Source: a virus. From it: a DNA stretch of 21,508 bases. The notes below the pieces were generated by a model. It was not told the origin of the DNA. It worked only from the letters and a program-made list of their open reading frames with translations, and did not search any database. Where the stretch lies: the IMG/VR virus record IMGVR_UViG_3300035034_002003, positions 1 to 21,508 of that record, one strand, 5' to 3'. The position numbers were made by a program, and so were the translations under genes. This document shows positions 1 through 21,508 of the stretch, in pieces (the stretch's first letter is position 1; every line of letters starts with the position of its first letter).

Positions 1-40
1 ACCTGGTGATCACTCAGCAGTCGACTTTTTAAAATCATAT

Positions 41-1195
41 ATGACTAATCTCAAACTCAAAGATCTGACAGATGAGCAAAGAGTAGAATTCATTATAATA
101 CATATTGAAGAGTATGGTGATCCAACTACACATAAACAATATGTTCAATGGATCTTAAAACAATGGTTGAAAGAATATATGCTAATTGAGGATATATCCG
201 CGGCGGGCAGAACATTGGCGCGGTTTGATAAACTCAAAAACCAAATTAAAAAAGATGGAAAATCAACTGATATCAACCAATATATTATATTTGAGGTTGA
301 CTACCTAATTAACACTTATACATTTAATCATGATACTACATCAAACGAACAAAAGCGTATTGACGCACAGAATGCAACTGACCAATCCGAGGTGATATAT
401 CGAGGTCGTGAAGGCATCTTGGTTATACCAAAAACTGAATATGCCGCGTGCTATTGGGGTAGGGGAACTCGTTGGTGTACTGCATCAAGAGACGATAATA
501 GATTTGATATCTATGCCAAGCAAGGCCCACTATATATATGGCTTGATCATCAATCAAAAGAAAAATATCAATTTCAATTTGGTAGATCACCACAGTTTAA
601 TGATAGTCGTGATATGGCTATTTCCAAAGAACTAATTGAAGAATTCAGAACTGGAAATTCAGTAACATCAAAATTATTTGATAGGGAAGAACAAAAATTA
701 CTTGAACTAGAATCATTATATCAAGCAGTAATTTATACCAAAGCAGTTATTAAGGGTAGATGGCCCAAACTTGAAGAAAATCTTCTGGCTATTAAATCAA
801 CAAATCGACTAGTAGAGTCACTAGATGCATTGGTAGATTATACCAAATTTGTCATTAAAGATCGCTGGCCAGAAGCTGAACCGCTTCTGCTTCTCACTGA
901 GTATACTGCAATCAATTATATTATGTCATGCATCGTACAAAAAGCAACGTCTAGATTTGCCTATTCTGAAAAATCAGCCTTAAGGTATATACGAAAAAAT
1001 CCAGAAGCTATGAAAATTTATAAAATGGGGAAAAAGCTCAGACCGCCATTGTATAGAGTAACTGAACAAGGATTAACTGATTTAGATTATGGGCAAACTC
1101 TATCAGAAACTGAAGTTGAGTATCACCTTCATATCAATGGCCATGATGAGGAAGCTGAGGATGCACCATTCATATATGAACCTATCAATAATTGA
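41..1195 (+). CDS. GTRWCTA / GRWPEAEP-repeat family protein, probably 5' partial
   Basis: Uncharacterised phage protein, paralogous to the gene at 20300. Seen in the sequence: an N-terminal block with DPT..QYV.WIL..WL (residues about 27-44), a DINQY motif near 77, the core CYWGRGTRWCTA at 137-148, then GPLYIW, KYQFQF and DSRD, and two GRWPEAEP-like repeats (from residues 239 and 274). The C-terminal 55 residues are unlike the paralogue. The frame stays open from base 2 to the ATG at 41. That ATG has no visible Shine-Dalgarno, and the N-terminal tag of the paralogue is missing, so the true start may lie outside the window. It converges on uvsW and overlaps its end by 11 bases. No enzymatic function can be assigned; the C and W in GTRWCTA are candidates for a structural or catalytic core. 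Confidence 0.8.
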   Translation: MTNLKLKDLTDEQRVEFIIIHIEEYGDPTTHKQYVQWILKQWLKEYMLIEDISAAGRTLARFDKLKNQIKKDGKSTDINQYIIFEVDYLINTYTFNHDTTSNEQKRIDAQNATDQSEVIYRGREGILVIPKTEYAACYWGRGTRWCTASRDDNRFDIYAKQGPLYIWLDHQSKEKYQFQFGRSPQFNDSRDMAISKELIEEFRTGNSVTSKLFDREEQKLLELESLYQAVIYTKAVIKGRWPKLEENLLAIKSTNRLVESLDALVDYTKFVIKDRWPEAEPLLLLTEYTAINYIMSCIVQKATSRFAYSEKSALRYIRKNPEAMKIYKMGKKLRPPLYRVTEQGLTDLDYGQTLSETEVEYHLHINGHDEEAEDAPFIYEPINN

Positions 1196-5172: not shown

Positions 5173-6279
5173 TCAAGTATCGTCTGTTAGTATAGCTTCA
5201 CCTTCTCTGAGTTCTTCAAGGATTTCTTCAATTTGATCTTTCTTGTCTAGATGATGATCCCATTCCATTAGAATAATGTCAAATATCTTGTTTAAGTTTT
5301 TCTTATATTCTTTTTCAAAATATTTGTGCTCAGTGCCTTGCCGGTCAACATAAATGTATTTGTTGCCAGTTCTTTCAAGAACACCTTTAGAGAGTATATA
5401 TTCAAACAATCCAGAATATGGATCAAGCCCTGTTTCATATGGAATTTCAAGTTCAACAGTTTCAAATGGCTTGCTGTACCTTGTCTTCATTATCTTGCAT
5501 TTTGCTCTAATACCATGCACTTGCGATGTCTTGTTGCCGTCAGCATCAGTTTTCAATTTTAATTTTGACATAGCAATCACTATTGAGCTTGCGTAAATGA
5601 ATCCTTGGCCGCCAGATATTTTATCATCGGGATCAAACATATCTTGTGATGCATATGTATGATTTGTTGCCACCAATCCCATATTCAAATCAGCAAACAT
5701 ATTGACAGCATTCCGCACTAGGGCAGTCAGCGACTTGGGCTTTCTACCAAAATCACCCTTGAGGTCACCTTTAGCAAATTGGTCAGTATCAGTTGGAGTC
5801 AGCAACATACCCAAGCTGTCAACCACAAATAATATCTTGGGTCTTTCTTCAATTTTTAGAGACATATATTCACTTTTATATTCTTTAACAAAATCAGAAA
5901 TAATTTTTGCCACGTCATCAACCATGGCGACATTCAGTTTAAGCAATTTGTCTTCTGACGTATCAACTTTGAGTGCTTTCAACCATTTTTCGTCTAGTGC
6001 ATTTTCTGTATCAATCAGTATTACAAATATGCCTTGGTCTTGCGCATTTTTGACCAGATTACCAGATGCAATAAATGATTTTCCTGCGCCACTTGATCCT
6101 GCTAAAACAGTGACCTTGCCAAGAGGAACCCCGTTATAGAAGCTGCCACTTATTAGTTTATTGAGCACAAAATTTCCTGTAGAAATCCAAGTATCTGGGT
6201 CCCGGAATCCAGTGCTCATACCAGGTATACTTTTAGTGAGTCCTTTTCTGAACTTTGAAACATCAAATGCTTTACTCAT
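5173..6279 (-). CDS. uvsX: UvsX RecA-like recombinase
   Basis: Strand-exchange recombinase that forms filaments on ssDNA with gp32 and UvsY and drives recombination-dependent replication and repair. The 368-residue length is near the 391 of T4. Motifs: Walker A GSSGAGKS (61-68), an ILIDTEN segment with E92 as catalytic Glu candidate, Walker B ILFVVDSLG (149-157), NHTYAS (206-211) and GGQGFIYAS at about loop L2, plus an acidic C-terminus. No intein or intron interrupts the ATPase core. ATG at 6279 overlaps the endonuclease stop (ATGA), and AAGGA eight bases ahead lies inside the endonuclease coding end, so uvsX translation depends partly on that region. Confidence 0.96.
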   Translation of the reverse strand: MSKAFDVSKFRKGLTKSIPGMSTGFRDPDTWISTGNFVLNKLISGSFYNGVPLGKVTVLAGSSGAGKSFIASGNLVKNAQDQGIFVILIDTENALDEKWLKALKVDTSEDKLLKLNVAMVDDVAKIISDFVKEYKSEYMSLKIEERPKILFVVDSLGMLLTPTDTDQFAKGDLKGDFGRKPKSLTALVRNAVNMFADLNMGLVATNHTYASQDMFDPDDKISGGQGFIYASSIVIAMSKLKLKTDADGNKTSQVHGIRAKCKIMKTRYSKPFETVELEIPYETGLDPYSGLFEYILSKGVLERTGNKYIYVDRQGTEHKYFEKEYKKNLNKIFDIILMEWDHHLDKKDQIEEILEELREGEAILTDDT

Positions 6280-8021
6280 TTATTCATCCTTTCATATAAC
6301 CATTTCTGGTGTCCGGCGTCGTATATTCGATAGAATCCATTTAAATTCATATTTTCTCTCTCTGTTAACAATTCGTTAAATTTTGGTAATATATTCTTCA
6401 ATTTATGTTTTTGAAATTTTAACCTGGATTCCAGATTACCATTTACAAGATACTTATATCCTGGTTTGGTGTTTTCTTTAAATATGAAACCCAATTTATT
6501 ATACAAGTTTCCTTGACTGAAACTTCTATCTGCGTATGATACTATACTTCCAGTATTATGGTCAAGAAAATACTTGAATAATTTGCTTGCACCGCCCACA
6601 ACTGAAACCCCAGTTTCAACACAAAACCGCATCAATTCCCATTCTATACTTTTATCAAATCTAGAAGATGAAAAAGTCATTACTGCTACCAATCTATTAT
6701 CATACTGTAATCCAATAGACTTGGATGAGTTTACATATCCCTGAATATGATTGGCTTTTAAAAATTCTCTCAATTGGATACTATTAATATGTGTAGTCAG
6801 TTGACAATTTCTTGCATAAATTTTTGTAGGTGAAAGTCCCAAGCGATGTGATATCATACTCTTGATGAGGTCAGTCTTATTATCCCAATCTAAATCATTG
6901 ACATGAATTAGTTGAATGCCTGCTTGGTCACATAATTTAGTTTTGTTCAAATGATATGAGTCTTCTAAAAATAATTCAGAATGCCAATATGTGCCATTAA
7001 ACTCAATGGCCATACTGGCAGAAGGAATATAAATGTCAAGTTCGTACGGATAGAGCAGTGTTCTATTATTGAGTTCAATAGTTTGACCCAATGACATAAT
7101 ATATTCTGATAATTGTAATTGACCATTAGAAGTATATGAGTATTTTAAATCAAGACCCAGTTGGGCGGCGCGCTGCTGAATAGGAGTTGAGCTGTATCCA
7201 AAGTATTTGGCAATTTCCAACACGGTGTTATGATATTCATATATTTTTTTGAACTGCTCGTCTGAGTGAAATTCAGCTATTTTTTCTGTTGATTTTCCAA
7301 TAAGCTTTGCATTATGTACTCCATATTTTTCTATTATGGAAGTTTTTTGTTTTTGCTTAATATCTGGAGATTGCATTGCATAATCATAACCAAATTTTCT
7401 TCTTGAAGTTTCTGTCACTTTTTCATTATGATTGGCGATCTGGCCAGGATTAGCGACGCCATATCGTTCATTCAATATAGCCCTTTGGTCAATAATACCT
7501 TGATGTGATTGCAAATAATGAGGGGAACCATATTTTTTAATATTAGAAATTTTAGCTAATTCTCGACATTCTTGGGTGGCAAGATAGGATGTTTTGCCGT
7601 ATTTCATTAAATGCGTCAATCTTGTCTTTTGTTTTATTTCTGTAGATTTCGTTGGAAATTCAACCCCATATTTTTCTAGATTTGTCGCCATAGTCTTTTT
7701 TAGCATAGTATCTTTATAATTTTCACCATGGTTTTGTATAAGGGTCTTTACTTTTTTGTCAGACACACATTGACAAGATTTATTGCATACATATTGCGAT
7801 TTCTTGAATTTTTGTCGCCGGCCGTATGGGCAGTGGGTATTCTCATGTGGATTATTAATCAGGTAAATTCGTTCAGCTAATGACTCGCAATCATTACTAG
7901 TATTAGCGTTAATCCAGTCAATCTCATCCTGACTATTCTTCAACAATGTTGCTCTTCTTTTTGGTTGTGCTATGAAAAGAGTTATAAAGTTGGATACTTG
8001 TGCGGGGATGAGATTGACCAT
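6276..8021 (-). CDS. Free-standing EDxHD-type homing endonuclease with KYG repeats
   Basis: Selfish DNA endonuclease, 581 residues. The N-terminus carries a Cys cluster (C64, C79, C83, C85) that may bind zinc. Residues about 110-240 hold at least four copies of the (R/K/E)KYG motif (LEKYGVEF, LMKYGKTS, IKKYGSPH, IEKYGVHN) typical of DUF723-like DNA-contacting repeats. A putative helix-turn-helix follows (about 262-292), then a Vsr/EDxHD-like nuclease core: YELDIYIP (E327, D329), AIEFNGTYWHSE (E340, H347) and YHLNKTKLC. A C-terminal domain (about 405-560) looks acetyltransferase-like (RFCVETGVSVVGGASKLF, YADRSFSQGNLYNKLGF). There is no visible Shine-Dalgarno before ATG 8021, and the gene looks more AT-rich than gp32 or uvsX. 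Placement between gp32 and uvsX suggests it targets this locus in rival phages. Confidence 0.9.
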   Translation of the reverse strand: MVNLIPAQVSNFITLFIAQPKRRATLLKNSQDEIDWINANTSNDCESLAERIYLINNPHENTHCPYGRRQKFKKSQYVCNKSCQCVSDKKVKTLIQNHGENYKDTMLKKTMATNLEKYGVEFPTKSTEIKQKTRLTHLMKYGKTSYLATQECRELAKISNIKKYGSPHYLQSHQGIIDQRAILNERYGVANPGQIANHNEKVTETSRRKFGYDYAMQSPDIKQKQKTSIIEKYGVHNAKLIGKSTEKIAEFHSDEQFKKIYEYHNTVLEIAKYFGYSSTPIQQRAAQLGLDLKYSYTSNGQLQLSEYIMSLGQTIELNNRTLLYPYELDIYIPSASMAIEFNGTYWHSELFLEDSYHLNKTKLCDQAGIQLIHVNDLDWDNKTDLIKSMISHRLGLSPTKIYARNCQLTTHINSIQLREFLKANHIQGYVNSSKSIGLQYDNRLVAVMTFSSSRFDKSIEWELMRFCVETGVSVVGGASKLFKYFLDHNTGSIVSYADRSFSQGNLYNKLGFIFKENTKPGYKYLVNGNLESRLKFQKHKLKNILPKFNELLTERENMNLNGFYRIYDAGHQKWLYERMNK

Positions 8022-9170: not shown

Positions 9171-10496
9171 TTAGAGTGCAAATATTCTTTCAAATCTAAA
9201 TTTATCTAGAGATTCTTTAAGATGTGAGATTGCTTCTTGTTCTGATTTATTATCAGCCGCATCCTCAACTTCTTCGTTTACTATAATAGAATTATGCAGA
9301 GAAGTCAATATATTATTTGCCTTTTCGTGCATTTCTGCTGGATAATTCCGATAGTTTTCTGCTATTTTCATTAATGCTTCTGCTATGTTATGGTCTGTTG
9401 TTTTCTGAGCAAGGTAATTAAACCAATCAACAGTTTCGTCAATTTTTGATCCATATGTGACATTGCATGGATGATTGGATTCGTTCTTATCCAGCATGTG
9501 AGAATTTAGACCGCCAGATTCCAATACCGCTTTGACCATTTCTGAAAGCTCTTTGCGGTAGCCTTGTTTCTTGACCATTGTTTCTTTGATTTTTCCCAAG
9601 TGTGGAAGAATGTCGGAAACCATTTCCTCAGTGAACATTTCCAGTAATGATTCATCAACTACTTCTTCTTCATCATCATCAGTATATGATTCAAAATACT
9701 TCTGGTAACCGTTGACATTATGCATACTGGCCAATGTTTTCTTAACTTCAGCAACTCTACTATAGACTTCATTGATGAACTCGTTATGTGATTCATGTAA
9801 CTCAGCGTCTTTGCGAGTTGATTTCAAAAAATTCTTGAGTTTGTTTGATTCCTCAGTAATATTCAAAATATGCTTTCCATGATTGTCATATGTACTGCCG
9901 CCCTCGCTGACGTGAACCGTCATGGCCCTGGCAGCAGGTACATTATTGTAAGGGAACCGAAAACGTTCTCCGCGATTATTTTCAACAAATATTGAATGTA
10001 TATTTCTAGACCTACTGCCACGAATATTTTCATCTATAGACTTGGTATGTCTAATATATAAGGTTGCATTTTCGAATTGTTGTTTCGAGGTTTTAATTGT
10101 TCCAAATGGTTTGGAAAAACCTTCAGTAACTGAATTACTCATATCATCTCCTGCTATTTTTTCTATCTGCGTAACATAATCCTTTGGAGAGATAACCTTT
10201 CCAATAGACTTCAAGTTGAATTCAAGAACGTATTTATTTGCCAATTTCCGTAGTTGGGTAATTAAACTTCTGATTTCACTAATATCAACTCCCTGCCCCA
10301 CATCCAAGTTAATTGCATTGTATTCACTAGATGTATCAAAGTTAAGCATAATGTTGGAGTCTTTACTGTAGAATCTACGAGCATAATCTATATTAAGAGT
10401 ATGCTCGCCTTCAAAAGTATACATCCTTAAAGTCAAGCCGTGGCTTTTCAAAGTTTTGAATAATTGATTACTGACTGATTTTTCATTAATTGACAT
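9171..10496 (-). CDS. Conserved phage protein of unknown function downstream of terminase
   Basis: 441-residue protein between the large terminase and gp32. I recall this family in marine T4-like phages but know no function. It has an N-terminal domain beginning MSINEKSVSNQLFKTLKSHG, a predicted mixed region to about residue 110, a distinctive middle block with RHTKSIDENIRGSRSRNIHS and RFRFPYNNVPAARAM (about 149-192), then long helical, acidic stretches (DDDEEEVVDES near 272-283) to the end. The GSRSRNI and FPYNN motifs look like a nucleic-acid or protein contact surface, but this is a guess. No signal peptide or membrane segment is visible. AAGGA seven bases before ATG supports the start. 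Being next to gp17 suggests a role in packaging or as a minor virion protein. Confidence 0.8.
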   Translation of the reverse strand: MSINEKSVSNQLFKTLKSHGLTLRMYTFEGEHTLNIDYARRFYSKDSNIMLNFDTSSEYNAINLDVGQGVDISEIRSLITQLRKLANKYVLEFNLKSIGKVISPKDYVTQIEKIAGDDMSNSVTEGFSKPFGTIKTSKQQFENATLYIRHTKSIDENIRGSRSRNIHSIFVENNRGERFRFPYNNVPAARAMTVHVSEGGSTYDNHGKHILNITEESNKLKNFLKSTRKDAELHESHNEFINEVYSRVAEVKKTLASMHNVNGYQKYFESYTDDDEEEVVDESLLEMFTEEMVSDILPHLGKIKETMVKKQGYRKELSEMVKAVLESGGLNSHMLDKNESNHPCNVTYGSKIDETVDWFNYLAQKTTDHNIAEALMKIAENYRNYPAEMHEKANNILTSLHNSIIVNEEVEDAADNKSEQEAISHLKESLDKFRFERIFAL

Positions 10497-13084: not shown

Positions 13085-13792
13085 TTATTTTTTTGATCCA
13101 CGACGCTTAAAAATCCTATAGGATTCAAGCATTTTGACTGGAGACAATGATCCGCTATTGGCATTGGCGGCTAACCAACTCATACGATTATTTGAATCCT
13201 CTTTAACTTCTTTGACTTCTTTTTCGTCATCACACCAGGCGGCTACCGCTTGCTTCAACGATGCATATTTTGTGTCTTGGCCTTTAATGTAGTATTCTCC
13301 AGTTTCTGGTTCTTCAACGGTTACAGTATCACCATTGTGTCCAACCTTGAAGCACTTGCATCCATCATCACGTGTAGTCATTGTGACAGTGTAACCATCA
13401 TCTTTGAGATCTTGAACATATTTAGATGAATCAGCATGTTCAGTTAGTTTGTTATTTTCAATAAACTCAAGCATGGAAATAATCTCAGCCATGCTTTTTT
13501 CGCCTTCTTGTATTTTGACTGGTTGAGCATCTGCTCCAAGCAAACGGCGTAGACTAGTATCAACAATCGCACCACTGGGTTGATCAAGATATTGTTCTCG
13601 ATCTTCAGTATCATCTTCTGGACTATTTGCCCATTCAGCCAACTCGTCACCACAATCATCATCTGATTCGGATTCTTCAGATTCTTCAGATTTCTTTACT
13701 TTGGCATCTGATTCGACGATGCGCTGAGGGTGTGTTGTTTTTCTGGCAGGTAGTCCCGCCAATTTAATTATGTTGTCTAATTCACTGTTCAT
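13085..13792 (-). CDS. Acidic structural-type hypothetical protein
   Basis: 235-residue protein beginning with ELDNIIKLAGLPAR, an N-terminal pattern (LDxIxxLAGL) that I recall in many cyanophage and marine-phage structural or head-associated proteins. It is followed by a highly acidic low-complexity block (about 32-65, rich in E, S and D) and a C-terminal domain with DDGYTVTMTTRDDGCKCFKV (131-150) and YASLKQAVAAW. The tail is basic (RIFKRRGSKK). It overlaps the upstream gene by ATGA. It is probably a minor virion or scaffold-like component, judged from context and the N-terminal pattern only. Confidence 0.7.
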   Translation of the reverse strand: MNSELDNIIKLAGLPARKTTHPQRIVESDAKVKKSEESEESESDDDCGDELAEWANSPEDDTEDREQYLDQPSGAIVDTSLRRLLGADAQPVKIQEGEKSMAEIISMLEFIENNKLTEHADSSKYVQDLKDDGYTVTMTTRDDGCKCFKVGHNGDTVTVEEPETGEYYIKGQDTKYASLKQAVAAWCDDEKEVKEVKEDSNNRMSWLAANANSGSLSPVKMLESYRIFKRRGSKK

Positions 13793-14307
13793 TTGTTTTT
13801 TACCTTATATTCATTATCCAGATTAACTCTCTTTTTTGACAAGTCCTTTAAGAACTTACTCAAGTGTTTATCGCCATGATAATCAGATCCTTTAACATCT
13901 TTATGTTCTGAATATTTGTCATCAGTTAGTCTTGGCTTATATTTTGTTTTTGGTTCTTGATTAATATCATCACCAATCAATTCCAATGGCTCTTGTTTGT
14001 TTCTAATTCGTATCTGTGTTTCACCAATTTTCAAACGGGCTATTAATTCATTCTTTAAAACATGAATTGGTGTTTGTAGCTTTGTTTTAAAATCAATAAT
14101 GAAAACTTCACATGCGCCGCATTCTGGAAAATCAAGAGGGGCTTTTTGAAAAATTGTCTTCTGTGGGGTGGAAACATCATAGGCTTCATATTTTCTTAGA
14201 TGAGTTTCCAGTTTATCAAGTTGGTCATCAGACAACTCAACTATGGTTTTTAACCTGAATTCATTAAATTTTGCTGATTCAGCTAGATATTGACTTAAAG
14301 TTTTCAT
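13789..14307 (-). CDS. Putative virion protein with capsid-targeting-like N-terminus
   Basis: 172-residue protein that I recall as a conserved structural or hypothetical protein in T4-like cyanophages and pelagiphages. The N-terminus MKTLSQYLAES closely resembles the capsid-targeting tag of T4 internal head proteins (MKTYQEFIAEA), including an L-A-E prohead-protease-type cleavage site. Then come a predicted alpha/beta domain with LSDDQLDKLETHLRKYEAYD, QKAPLDFPECGACEVFIIDF (residues about 54-73) and HVLKNELIARL, and a charged, lysine-rich tail. AGGA precedes the ATG. It follows gp16 closely. Packaging inside the head is inferred from the tag; the molecular function is unknown. Confidence 0.7.
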   Translation of the reverse strand: MKTLSQYLAESAKFNEFRLKTIVELSDDQLDKLETHLRKYEAYDVSTPQKTIFQKAPLDFPECGACEVFIIDFKTKLQTPIHVLKNELIARLKIGETQIRIRNKQEPLELIGDDINQEPKTKYKPRLTDDKYSEHKDVKGSDYHGDKHLSKFLKDLSKKRVNLDNEYKVKNK

Positions 14308-20299: not shown

Positions 20300-21451
20300 A
20301 TGCGAATACATCAAATATTGCTTGAATATAACAGAGCAAAGACCGTGGCGACCTATAATGAATTAATCAGCACTAGGGCAAAATATGATCATTCAGTAGA
20401 CGGGCAAGATATTAATCAAATCATTGAAATTATTGAGCAAATTGATCCAACTCCAAATAATCAATATGTGGTATGGATATTAAGGAATTGGTTAAAATCC
20501 AATATTCAGTTCTTGGCAGAAGATGGATACAGAATCACAGAGTCCTTGGGTATATTTTATACAAAAAAAGCACAAATCAAGGCCGACAACTCGTCAGTTG
20601 ACATAAATCAATATGACGCCAATACTCTTCAAGATTTAACTGATCAATACCGGGATGCCCAATCAGGCAAGGAAATTAGGAAAGAAGAAAGTGAGCAGGC
20701 GCGTCAGGAAAGCAATATATTATATGAAGGGCCGCTTGGTATCTTAGTGAATCCAAAAACTGAAGAGGCATCCTGTTATTGGGGGCGCGGAACCCGTTGG
20801 TGTACTGCCGCAACTAAGTCAGAAAATATGTTTGCTGATTATGATAAGGCCGGGCCACTCTATATCTGGATAGGAGTTGACGGTGGAAAATATCAGTTTC
20901 AGTTTGAAACTGAACAATTTATGGACAGTCGCGATCGTAAAATTAATACTGAGATACTCAAAAATTTAAGATTAAATCATCCAGTCATATCAAAATTATT
21001 TAAACACCATGAACAAAAACTATTAAGAGACGTTGCAGATAATGGCAGCGAATTTATTAGTGATCTAATGTCGTATCTGGCAGATTTTGTTGAAGGCCGG
21101 TGGCCAGAGGCAGAACCCTATATCATGAAGTCTGATGAAGCTGCATCGTACGCGCGGGAGTTCATTACAGGACGGTGGTATGAGGCAGAACCATATATCA
21201 TGAAATCTAAAGAGGCAGCATTGTATGCTCGTGATGTAATTAAAGGACGGTGGTATGAGGCAGAGCCAGATATTATGAAATCTAAATATGCAATATTGTA
21301 CGCCAACTATGTTATTAACGGCCGCTGGCCAGAGGCAGAGCCTTATATATTGCAGACCCGCGACGCCGCGCAGCGGTATATTAAAGACGTCCTTGAAGGA
21401 GAAGAATGGCCTGAGTATGAAGCTAAATGGAATCGGTCTGGTAGGTGGTGA
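20300..21451 (+). CDS. GTRWCTA / GRWPEAEP-repeat family protein with N-terminal tag
   Basis: 383-residue paralogue of the protein at 41-1195. The N-terminus MRIHQILLEYNRAKT looks like a T4-type capsid-targeting tag with an L-L-E cleavage-like site. It then has DPTPNNQYVVWILRNWL (49-65), DINQYD (101-106), the shared core CYWGRGTRWCTA (159-170), GPLYIW, KYQFQF, DSRD and SKLFKHHEQKLL. Residues 266 onward are 25-residue repeats starting GRWPEAEP or GRWYEAEP. The start has AGGAA about six bases ahead. No enzyme motif, signal peptide or membrane span was found. Function is unknown; packaging in the head is a hypothesis based on the tag and the late-type promoter. Confidence 0.9.
   Translation: MRIHQILLEYNRAKTVATYNELISTRAKYDHSVDGQDINQIIEIIEQIDPTPNNQYVVWILRNWLKSNIQFLAEDGYRITESLGIFYTKKAQIKADNSSVDINQYDANTLQDLTDQYRDAQSGKEIRKEESEQARQESNILYEGPLGILVNPKTEEASCYWGRGTRWCTAATKSENMFADYDKAGPLYIWIGVDGGKYQFQFETEQFMDSRDRKINTEILKNLRLNHPVISKLFKHHEQKLLRDVADNGSEFISDLMSYLADFVEGRWPEAEPYIMKSDEAASYAREFITGRWYEAEPYIMKSKEAALYARDVIKGRWYEAEPDIMKSKYAILYANYVINGRWPEAEPYILQTRDAAQRYIKDVLEGEEWPEYEAKWNRSGRW
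21095..21394 (+). repeat. 75-base tandem repeats encoding 25-residue GRWPEAEP units
   Basis: Three complete 75-base units start at 21095, 21170 and 21245, with a diverged fourth from 21320. They encode GRW(P/Y)EAEP.IMKS..A..YA..VI units. The first two units are very alike at DNA level, which suggests recent duplication or recombination. Two looser copies, from about 755 and 860, occur in the left-hand paralogue. Confidence 0.85.
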
Positions 21452-21456
21452 ATATT

Positions 21457-21508
21457 ATGAATCTCAGAAAATTACTATTTGAATACGATAGAAAAAAATC
21501 ACTAATTA
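21457..21508 (+). CDS. Third GTRWCTA-family gene, 3' truncated by the window end
   Basis: The open frame begins five bases after the previous stop, with a TAGGTGG ribosome-like site ahead of the ATG. The 17 visible residues, MNLRKLLFEYDRKKSLI, match the N-terminus of the 20300 protein (MRIHQILLEYNRAKT) in the hhxxLLxEY(N/D)RxK(T/S) pattern. Only the tag is visible, so membership of the whole family is inferred. If correct, these genes form a tandem array. Confidence 0.6.
   Translation, partial: MNLRKLLFEYDRKKSLI

Follow-up and report, generated by a model that had tools for sequence, protein, structure and literature searches.

Paralogous proteins with a T4-like candidate head-targeting leader at the two ends of a T4-type phage fragment

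Two genes at opposite ends of a fragment of a T4-type phage encode paralogous proteins with a common core, the WCTA core, and belong to a multicopy phage family whose N termini resemble the head-targeting leaders of T4 internal proteins. The fragment is the whole of IMG/VR record IMGVR_UViG_3300035034_002003 (21,508 bases, here called the window). With a probability of roughly 60%, judging from sequence, these genes encode head cargo that would be packaged and injected by the phage and that has diversified like the T4 internal proteins. Because their first nine residues look like a T4-type head tag, the copies would probably be injected to control the host or counter its defences, as a diversified set, and are unlikely to be housekeeping enzymes.

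Minus-strand genes of the window include those for the helicase, the terminase large subunit, and the tail sheath, and the two family genes run the other way, on the plus strand, as the first-pass annotation had noted. Searches of the window for RNA genes and for the T4 late promoter TATAAATA found none, and no gp21 gene was seen within the 21.5-kb fragment. A 581-aa ORF on the minus strand (6276 to 8021), which adjoins a UvsX-like gene, resembles Hef-like/HNH homing endonucleases by inspection, and a gene of similar look was found on a relative (L009:2465-3925).

The two flank genes (Table 1) had been proposed to be paralogues, and this was confirmed. Their products, P0001 and P0002, are 37% identical over 317 aa (blastp, E 5.6e-56) and 44% identical in the core (tblastn, E 5e-51), a likeness far beyond chance. 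All of the motifs named at first pass stand at matching places in P0001 and P0002, respectively: DPT at residues 27 and 49, CYWGRGTRWCTA at 137 and 159, GPLYIW at 162 and 185, KYQFQF at 175 and 197, and DSRD at 188 and 209. C-terminal GRW(P)EAEP repeats had been ascribed to both proteins; P0002 indeed carries an array of them, but P0001 has degenerate units only. A third gene had been placed at 21457. Its start is present, 5 nt past the P0002 stop, and its N terminus fits the family consensus ..LLE-Y-(N/D)-R, but only 17 codons (52 bases, MNLRKLLFEYDRKKSLI) fall inside the window and the body lies outside it.

Table 1. Positions of the family genes, their parts, and an unrelated leader-bearing ORF in the window
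Feature	Position (nt)	Strand	Remarks
Paralogue 1 (P0001)	2..1195	+	5′ end cut by contig start; ATG at 41 internal
Core domain of paralogue 1	about 119-685	+	
Two degenerate GRW(P)EAEP units, paralogue 1	752..883	+	KGRWPKLEE at aa 238, KDRWPEAEP at aa 273
Unrelated 172-aa ORF	13789..14307	-	N terminus resembling a capsid-targeting sequence, MKTLSQYLAE/S; no Pfam match above cut-off
Paralogue 2 (P0002), 383 aa	20300..21451	+	AF2 model, mean pLDDT 91.4
Candidate capsid-targeting sequence MRIHQILLE, P0002	20300..20326	+	L-x-E cleavage-type site after residue 9
WCTA core of paralogue 2, aa 40-225	20417..20974	+	Three alignments; core model pLDDT 92.2
Four 25-aa GRW(P/Y)EAEP repeats and one degenerate unit, paralogue 2	21092..21415	+	Helical in AF2 model
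Third tandem copy, start only	21457..21508	+	MNLRKLLFE/YDRKKSLI; cut by contig end

The start called at position 41 for the left gene is not its true one. Its reading frame is open to base 2 of the contig, and a sister contig (L041), which is 99.2% identical to window positions 1 to 124, shows that the gene begins upstream of the window equivalent, as MQINQILLEYTRAVTVKNYAQRILNRIPGDHSAVDF, with MQINQILLE as its first residues; this puts the ATG at 41 inside the gene. The P0001-equivalent gene of L041 has a shortened body, and a second, divergent copy then follows (MRIHQILLEYNRQITINRL). The last stretch of this second copy has 92% DNA identity to window positions 527 to 648, so copies in the window's phage group appear to recombine. 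Both contigs end inside family copies, which suggests that paralogues broke the assembly. When L041:10494-10760 is set against window positions 1 to 1195, the opening 124 bases of paralogue 1 are followed directly by a repeat region in which a stop codon comes early, through either a chimeric assembly or a deletion joining two paralogues. Beside the family copies of L041 is a 390-aa ORF (9275-10447, minus strand) that looks ART-like by inspection (VYRGMNF..ISSWTRS) and matches DRAT weakly (E 0.031).

The core signature of the phage family is D-P-T, GTRWCTA, and Q..D..D, with D-P, D, P, G, W-C, and Y near-invariant in alignments. Profile searches of the loci fetched gave 60 family ORFs, a count in which some genes recur because loci overlap. 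Relatives in cultured phages were found by tblastn in PA5oct-type jumbo phages (40%), Salicola phage SCTP-2, and Caulobacter phage CcrBL9. Copy number among related phages, which the first-pass annotation had proposed to check, does vary, from 1 each in PA5oct and CcrBL9 through 3, 4, 5, and 6 to 7 per record in SCTP-2, and several of the multicopy relatives are tandem arrays. Dosage had been offered as one reason for several copies; it was rejected because the copies in the window's phage group are too diverged, being only about 37 to 49% identical. Across the family, the bodies diverge to 20 to 40% identity, with swapped repeat types. When 84,980 bacterial and archaeal genomes were scanned once, three MAG contigs matched the family, one of which (L158) looks by inspection like a T4-type phage contig, where two copies are surrounded by terminase-like and further virion-like genes; on these grounds, an origin of the family in bacterial chromosomes was rejected. 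The family model also matched Marseillevirus-labelled metagenomic proteins in BFVD (A0A481Z016, A0A481YZT2, and A0A481YW50; ankyrin and others) at E 8e-11 to 1.5e-13, and these are explained either by gene transfer into giant viruses or by contigs that were binned wrongly.

The core is covered by phrog_28193 and phrog_17056 at E 1e-9 to 1e-12, both of unknown function. Searches with the window proteins against Pfam, NCBIfam, PADLOC, and PDB sequences gave no match above threshold, and sub-threshold matches to DUF4216 and Iron_permease were judged to be chance. In the AF2 model of P0002, residues 1 to 7 are disordered (pLDDT < 50) and residues 12 to 27 form a helix; the helical N part is followed by a small alpha/beta core containing the invariant G..W-C and then by an all-helical repeat region. 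A PDB fold search with the full-length and core models of P0002 gave nothing at E < 0.001, a level at which a more distant fold match is possible, and weak rows for helical-repeat, polo-box, and GNAT-type folds (Z at most 5.3) were judged to be common arrangements. A housekeeping enzyme, which the first-pass annotation had named as the finding that would tell against it, was looked for in these profile and structure searches; none matched above thresholds, and such a function is therefore judged improbable.

The GRWPEAEP repeats are a mobile helical module separate from the WCTA core. The unit is 25 aa long in P0002 and mostly 26 aa elsewhere. Units without the core stand behind other N-terminal regions, one ART-like by inspection (L010) and one with a weak amidoligase match (L021), and WCTA cores occur with other repeats (L043) or without GRWPEAEP repeats (PA5oct gp279). 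In L053, a single chain holds a weak nucleotidyltransferase match, the WCTA core, repeats, and Amidoligase_2 (E 9e-10). Proteins consisting mostly of GRWPEAEP-type repeats, without the core or an obvious leader, were seen in L013-L019, L022, and L023.

Most family proteins begin with a leader, not remarked on at first pass, of the pattern M(K/R)xx(E/D/Q)(F/I/L)..(L/I)xE, for instance MKLNQVILE, MRATEFLLE, and MRARDFILLE. T4 internal proteins bear capsid-targeting leaders of 10 to 19 residues, and T4 gp21 cuts after L/I-X-E (PMC9026906). By sequence comparison, the family N terminus fits both the T4 tag and the gp21 motif, with the leaders of P0002 (MRIHQILLE), of the third copy (MNLRKLLFE), and of the P0001 sister (MQINQILLE) each 9 residues long, one under the quoted range. 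An [LI]xE ending near residue 7 to 20 was present in 34 of 41 family ORFs compared to 167 of the 834 remaining ORFs in those loci, and shuffling gave a mean of 10.8 and a maximum of 18 against the 34 observed, in counts that are not independent within the family because its members are related. The full pattern, drawn up post hoc from the family already seen, was then scored in three related phage contigs of 213 to 250 kb (G001-G003), where it occurred at 11/376, 8/367, and 8/596 N-terminal methionines (27/1,339 in all; 28 matches with a lower ORF limit) compared to 0/3,758 internal ones.

Tagged proteins are not confined to the WCTA family, which makes up 9 of the 34 found in these three contigs, PA5oct, and the window; the 34 fall into 26 groups with mutually dissimilar bodies. 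Some of these bodies gave weak, sub-threshold matches to GNAT, SLT transglycosylase, and metallopeptidase; likeness to kinases, ARTs, and nucleotidyltransferases was seen only by eye. When one residue of the pattern was relaxed for a positive control in T4, four proteins came up, ipII and ipIII among them; the other two are probably false positives, and the pattern is therefore not perfectly specific. The tag was absent in two of the three MAG relatives (L159 and L160) and in a few viral members. In the window, the leader of the unrelated 172-aa ORF (Table 1) is close to that of T4 ipII/ipIII, making this ORF a candidate for further head cargo or a core protein. Like leaders on different bodies were also seen in family neighbours (L050:2642-3676, L049:5476-5832, L049:6753-7166, and L050:9521-10192), one of which has weak RegB/Colicin E5-type matches.

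Two relatives place the family in its phage setting. One, on L009, is a partial paralogue with 61% protein identity to the C-terminal half of P0002, the closest paralogue of that half, and genes for a gp21 protease (phrog_207, E 4e-56), for a scaffold-like protein, and for gp23 (phrog_138) were also found on L009, on the opposite strand. The other, PA5oct gp279 (YP_010678935), belongs to the same core family (40 to 46% identity) and has a similar leader, MKLFEVFTLYE/D; unlike the window genes, it is single copy, lacks GRWPEAEP repeats, and lies on the same strand as the adjoining terminase gene. It is annotated as a "structural protein" by ESI-MS/MS, a virion detection by annotation of a relative. 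The PA5oct MS-detected list also includes ribonucleotide reductase and similar metabolic enzymes, so detection is not proof of encapsidation. Among the MS-detected PA5oct proteins, the broad [LI]xE was not enriched (15/93 compared to 22/111), leaving it unsupported as a marker of virion proteins in this phage, and the strict leader motif did not differ significantly (5/93 compared to 3/111).

In the packaged-cargo reading, the first about 9 residues would serve as a capsid-targeting sequence and bring the protein into the core of the prohead, after which a gp21-type prohead protease would cut after L/I-x-E. The mature protein, consisting of the WCTA core and in some copies a GRWPEAEP array, would be packaged with the DNA and enter the host with it, and the core and repeats would there bind a target, most likely one in defence or takeover. 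Tandem duplication and divergence of the core and repeat array may then widen the range of targets. A precedent is found in T4, where Ip1-3 have only the leader in common and each blocks different GmrSD nucleases (PMC12373910). The window family shares with T4 IPI, IPII, IPIII, and Alt a short leader ending in L/I-x-E on otherwise unrelated bodies, non-core genes present in several copies, and, judging from L009, a phage group with a gp21-type protease and a gp23 capsid. It differs in that its mature bodies have no detected sequence relation to the T4 proteins, and in its size (about 300 to 1,500 aa), its new core with repeats, and its up to 7 copies; packaging and injection are also, in its case, predicted from sequence. 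The first-pass suggestion that the copies diversified as host-interaction or internal head proteins is favoured by the 3 to 7 copies, the tag, and the virion annotation of a relative, its packaging and injection being the part that we infer.

A leader of this kind could also belong to a head-core or structural protein that is loaded into the prohead and serves assembly like T4 gp67/gp68 rather than acting as an injected effector. T4 core proteins are likewise cut at L/I-x-E (PMC9026906), in PA5oct and L158 the family genes have terminase, tail, and capsid genes around them, and the gp279 annotation fits such a role. A copy number of 1 to 7, bodies 20 to 40% identical, and swapped repeat types are unlike assembly proteins, and some tagged neighbours resemble enzymes and effectors, which makes this role unlikely. 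Still less likely is that these are cytoplasmic accessory genes expressed after infection, with the common N terminus a translation-enhancing or folding feature. The behaviour of the broad [LI]xE in PA5oct and the family members without the motif would agree with that, but what is common to the N termini is protein sequence, ends in L/I-x-E, occurs at none of the 3,758 internal methionines, and heads 26 groups of unrelated bodies, matching the leader logic of T4 internal proteins.

We consider it improbable that the proteins are divergent PcfJ-type (PF14284) domain proteins of mobile elements, with a role in DNA transfer or early establishment. PcfJ did not match the window proteins in Pfam, but it matched 5 of 37 core sequences (best E 8.9e-4, below the curated cut-off; one search gave 17.9 bits against a cut-off of 25). 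PcfJ-like models come after family members in a viral fold library (weak, E 0.05 to 1.4), and in hhalign WCTA aligns with the HCV motif of PcfJ, also weakly (E 0.07). PcfJ genes sit beside AcrIIA9/PcfK. This similarity in sequence and fold around a conserved Cys motif is suggestive of a distant link, but every match is below threshold, G-T-x-W-C-T stands in place of the E-G..L.HCV signature, and the genetic setting is different; membership in PcfJ was therefore not accepted. A PcfJ-type origin would in any case be compatible with packaging. The polyvalent proteins of phages and conjugative elements are likewise predicted to be injected and have mix-and-match domain architectures (PMC5512222). 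The L053 chain, with its weak nucleotidyltransferase match, WCTA core, repeats, and amidoligase domain, is like them, whereas the window proteins have one core and repeats rather than several unrelated functional domains, and the polyvalent-survey domains held in Pfam gave no match to them above cut-off.

A wider proposal can be made, tentatively and with the odds somewhat against it: that large environmental phages related to T4 have more tagged head cargo than T4 itself, with one leader on many unrelated bodies (acetyltransferase-, kinase-, peptidase-, and nucleotidyltransferase-like). Of this set the WCTA/PcfJ-related family would be the one that has expanded most, and its proteins would be injected against host defences and carry repeat arrays that can be exchanged. 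Should the tag work as proposed here, the injected proteins of uncultured T4-type phages could be listed from their first ten residues, whatever the body, which would extend what is known from three small T4 proteins. A family with no assigned function would become a concrete candidate set of anti-defence or takeover proteins, and the multicopy, variable genes that lie between otherwise conserved T4-type modules would be explained.
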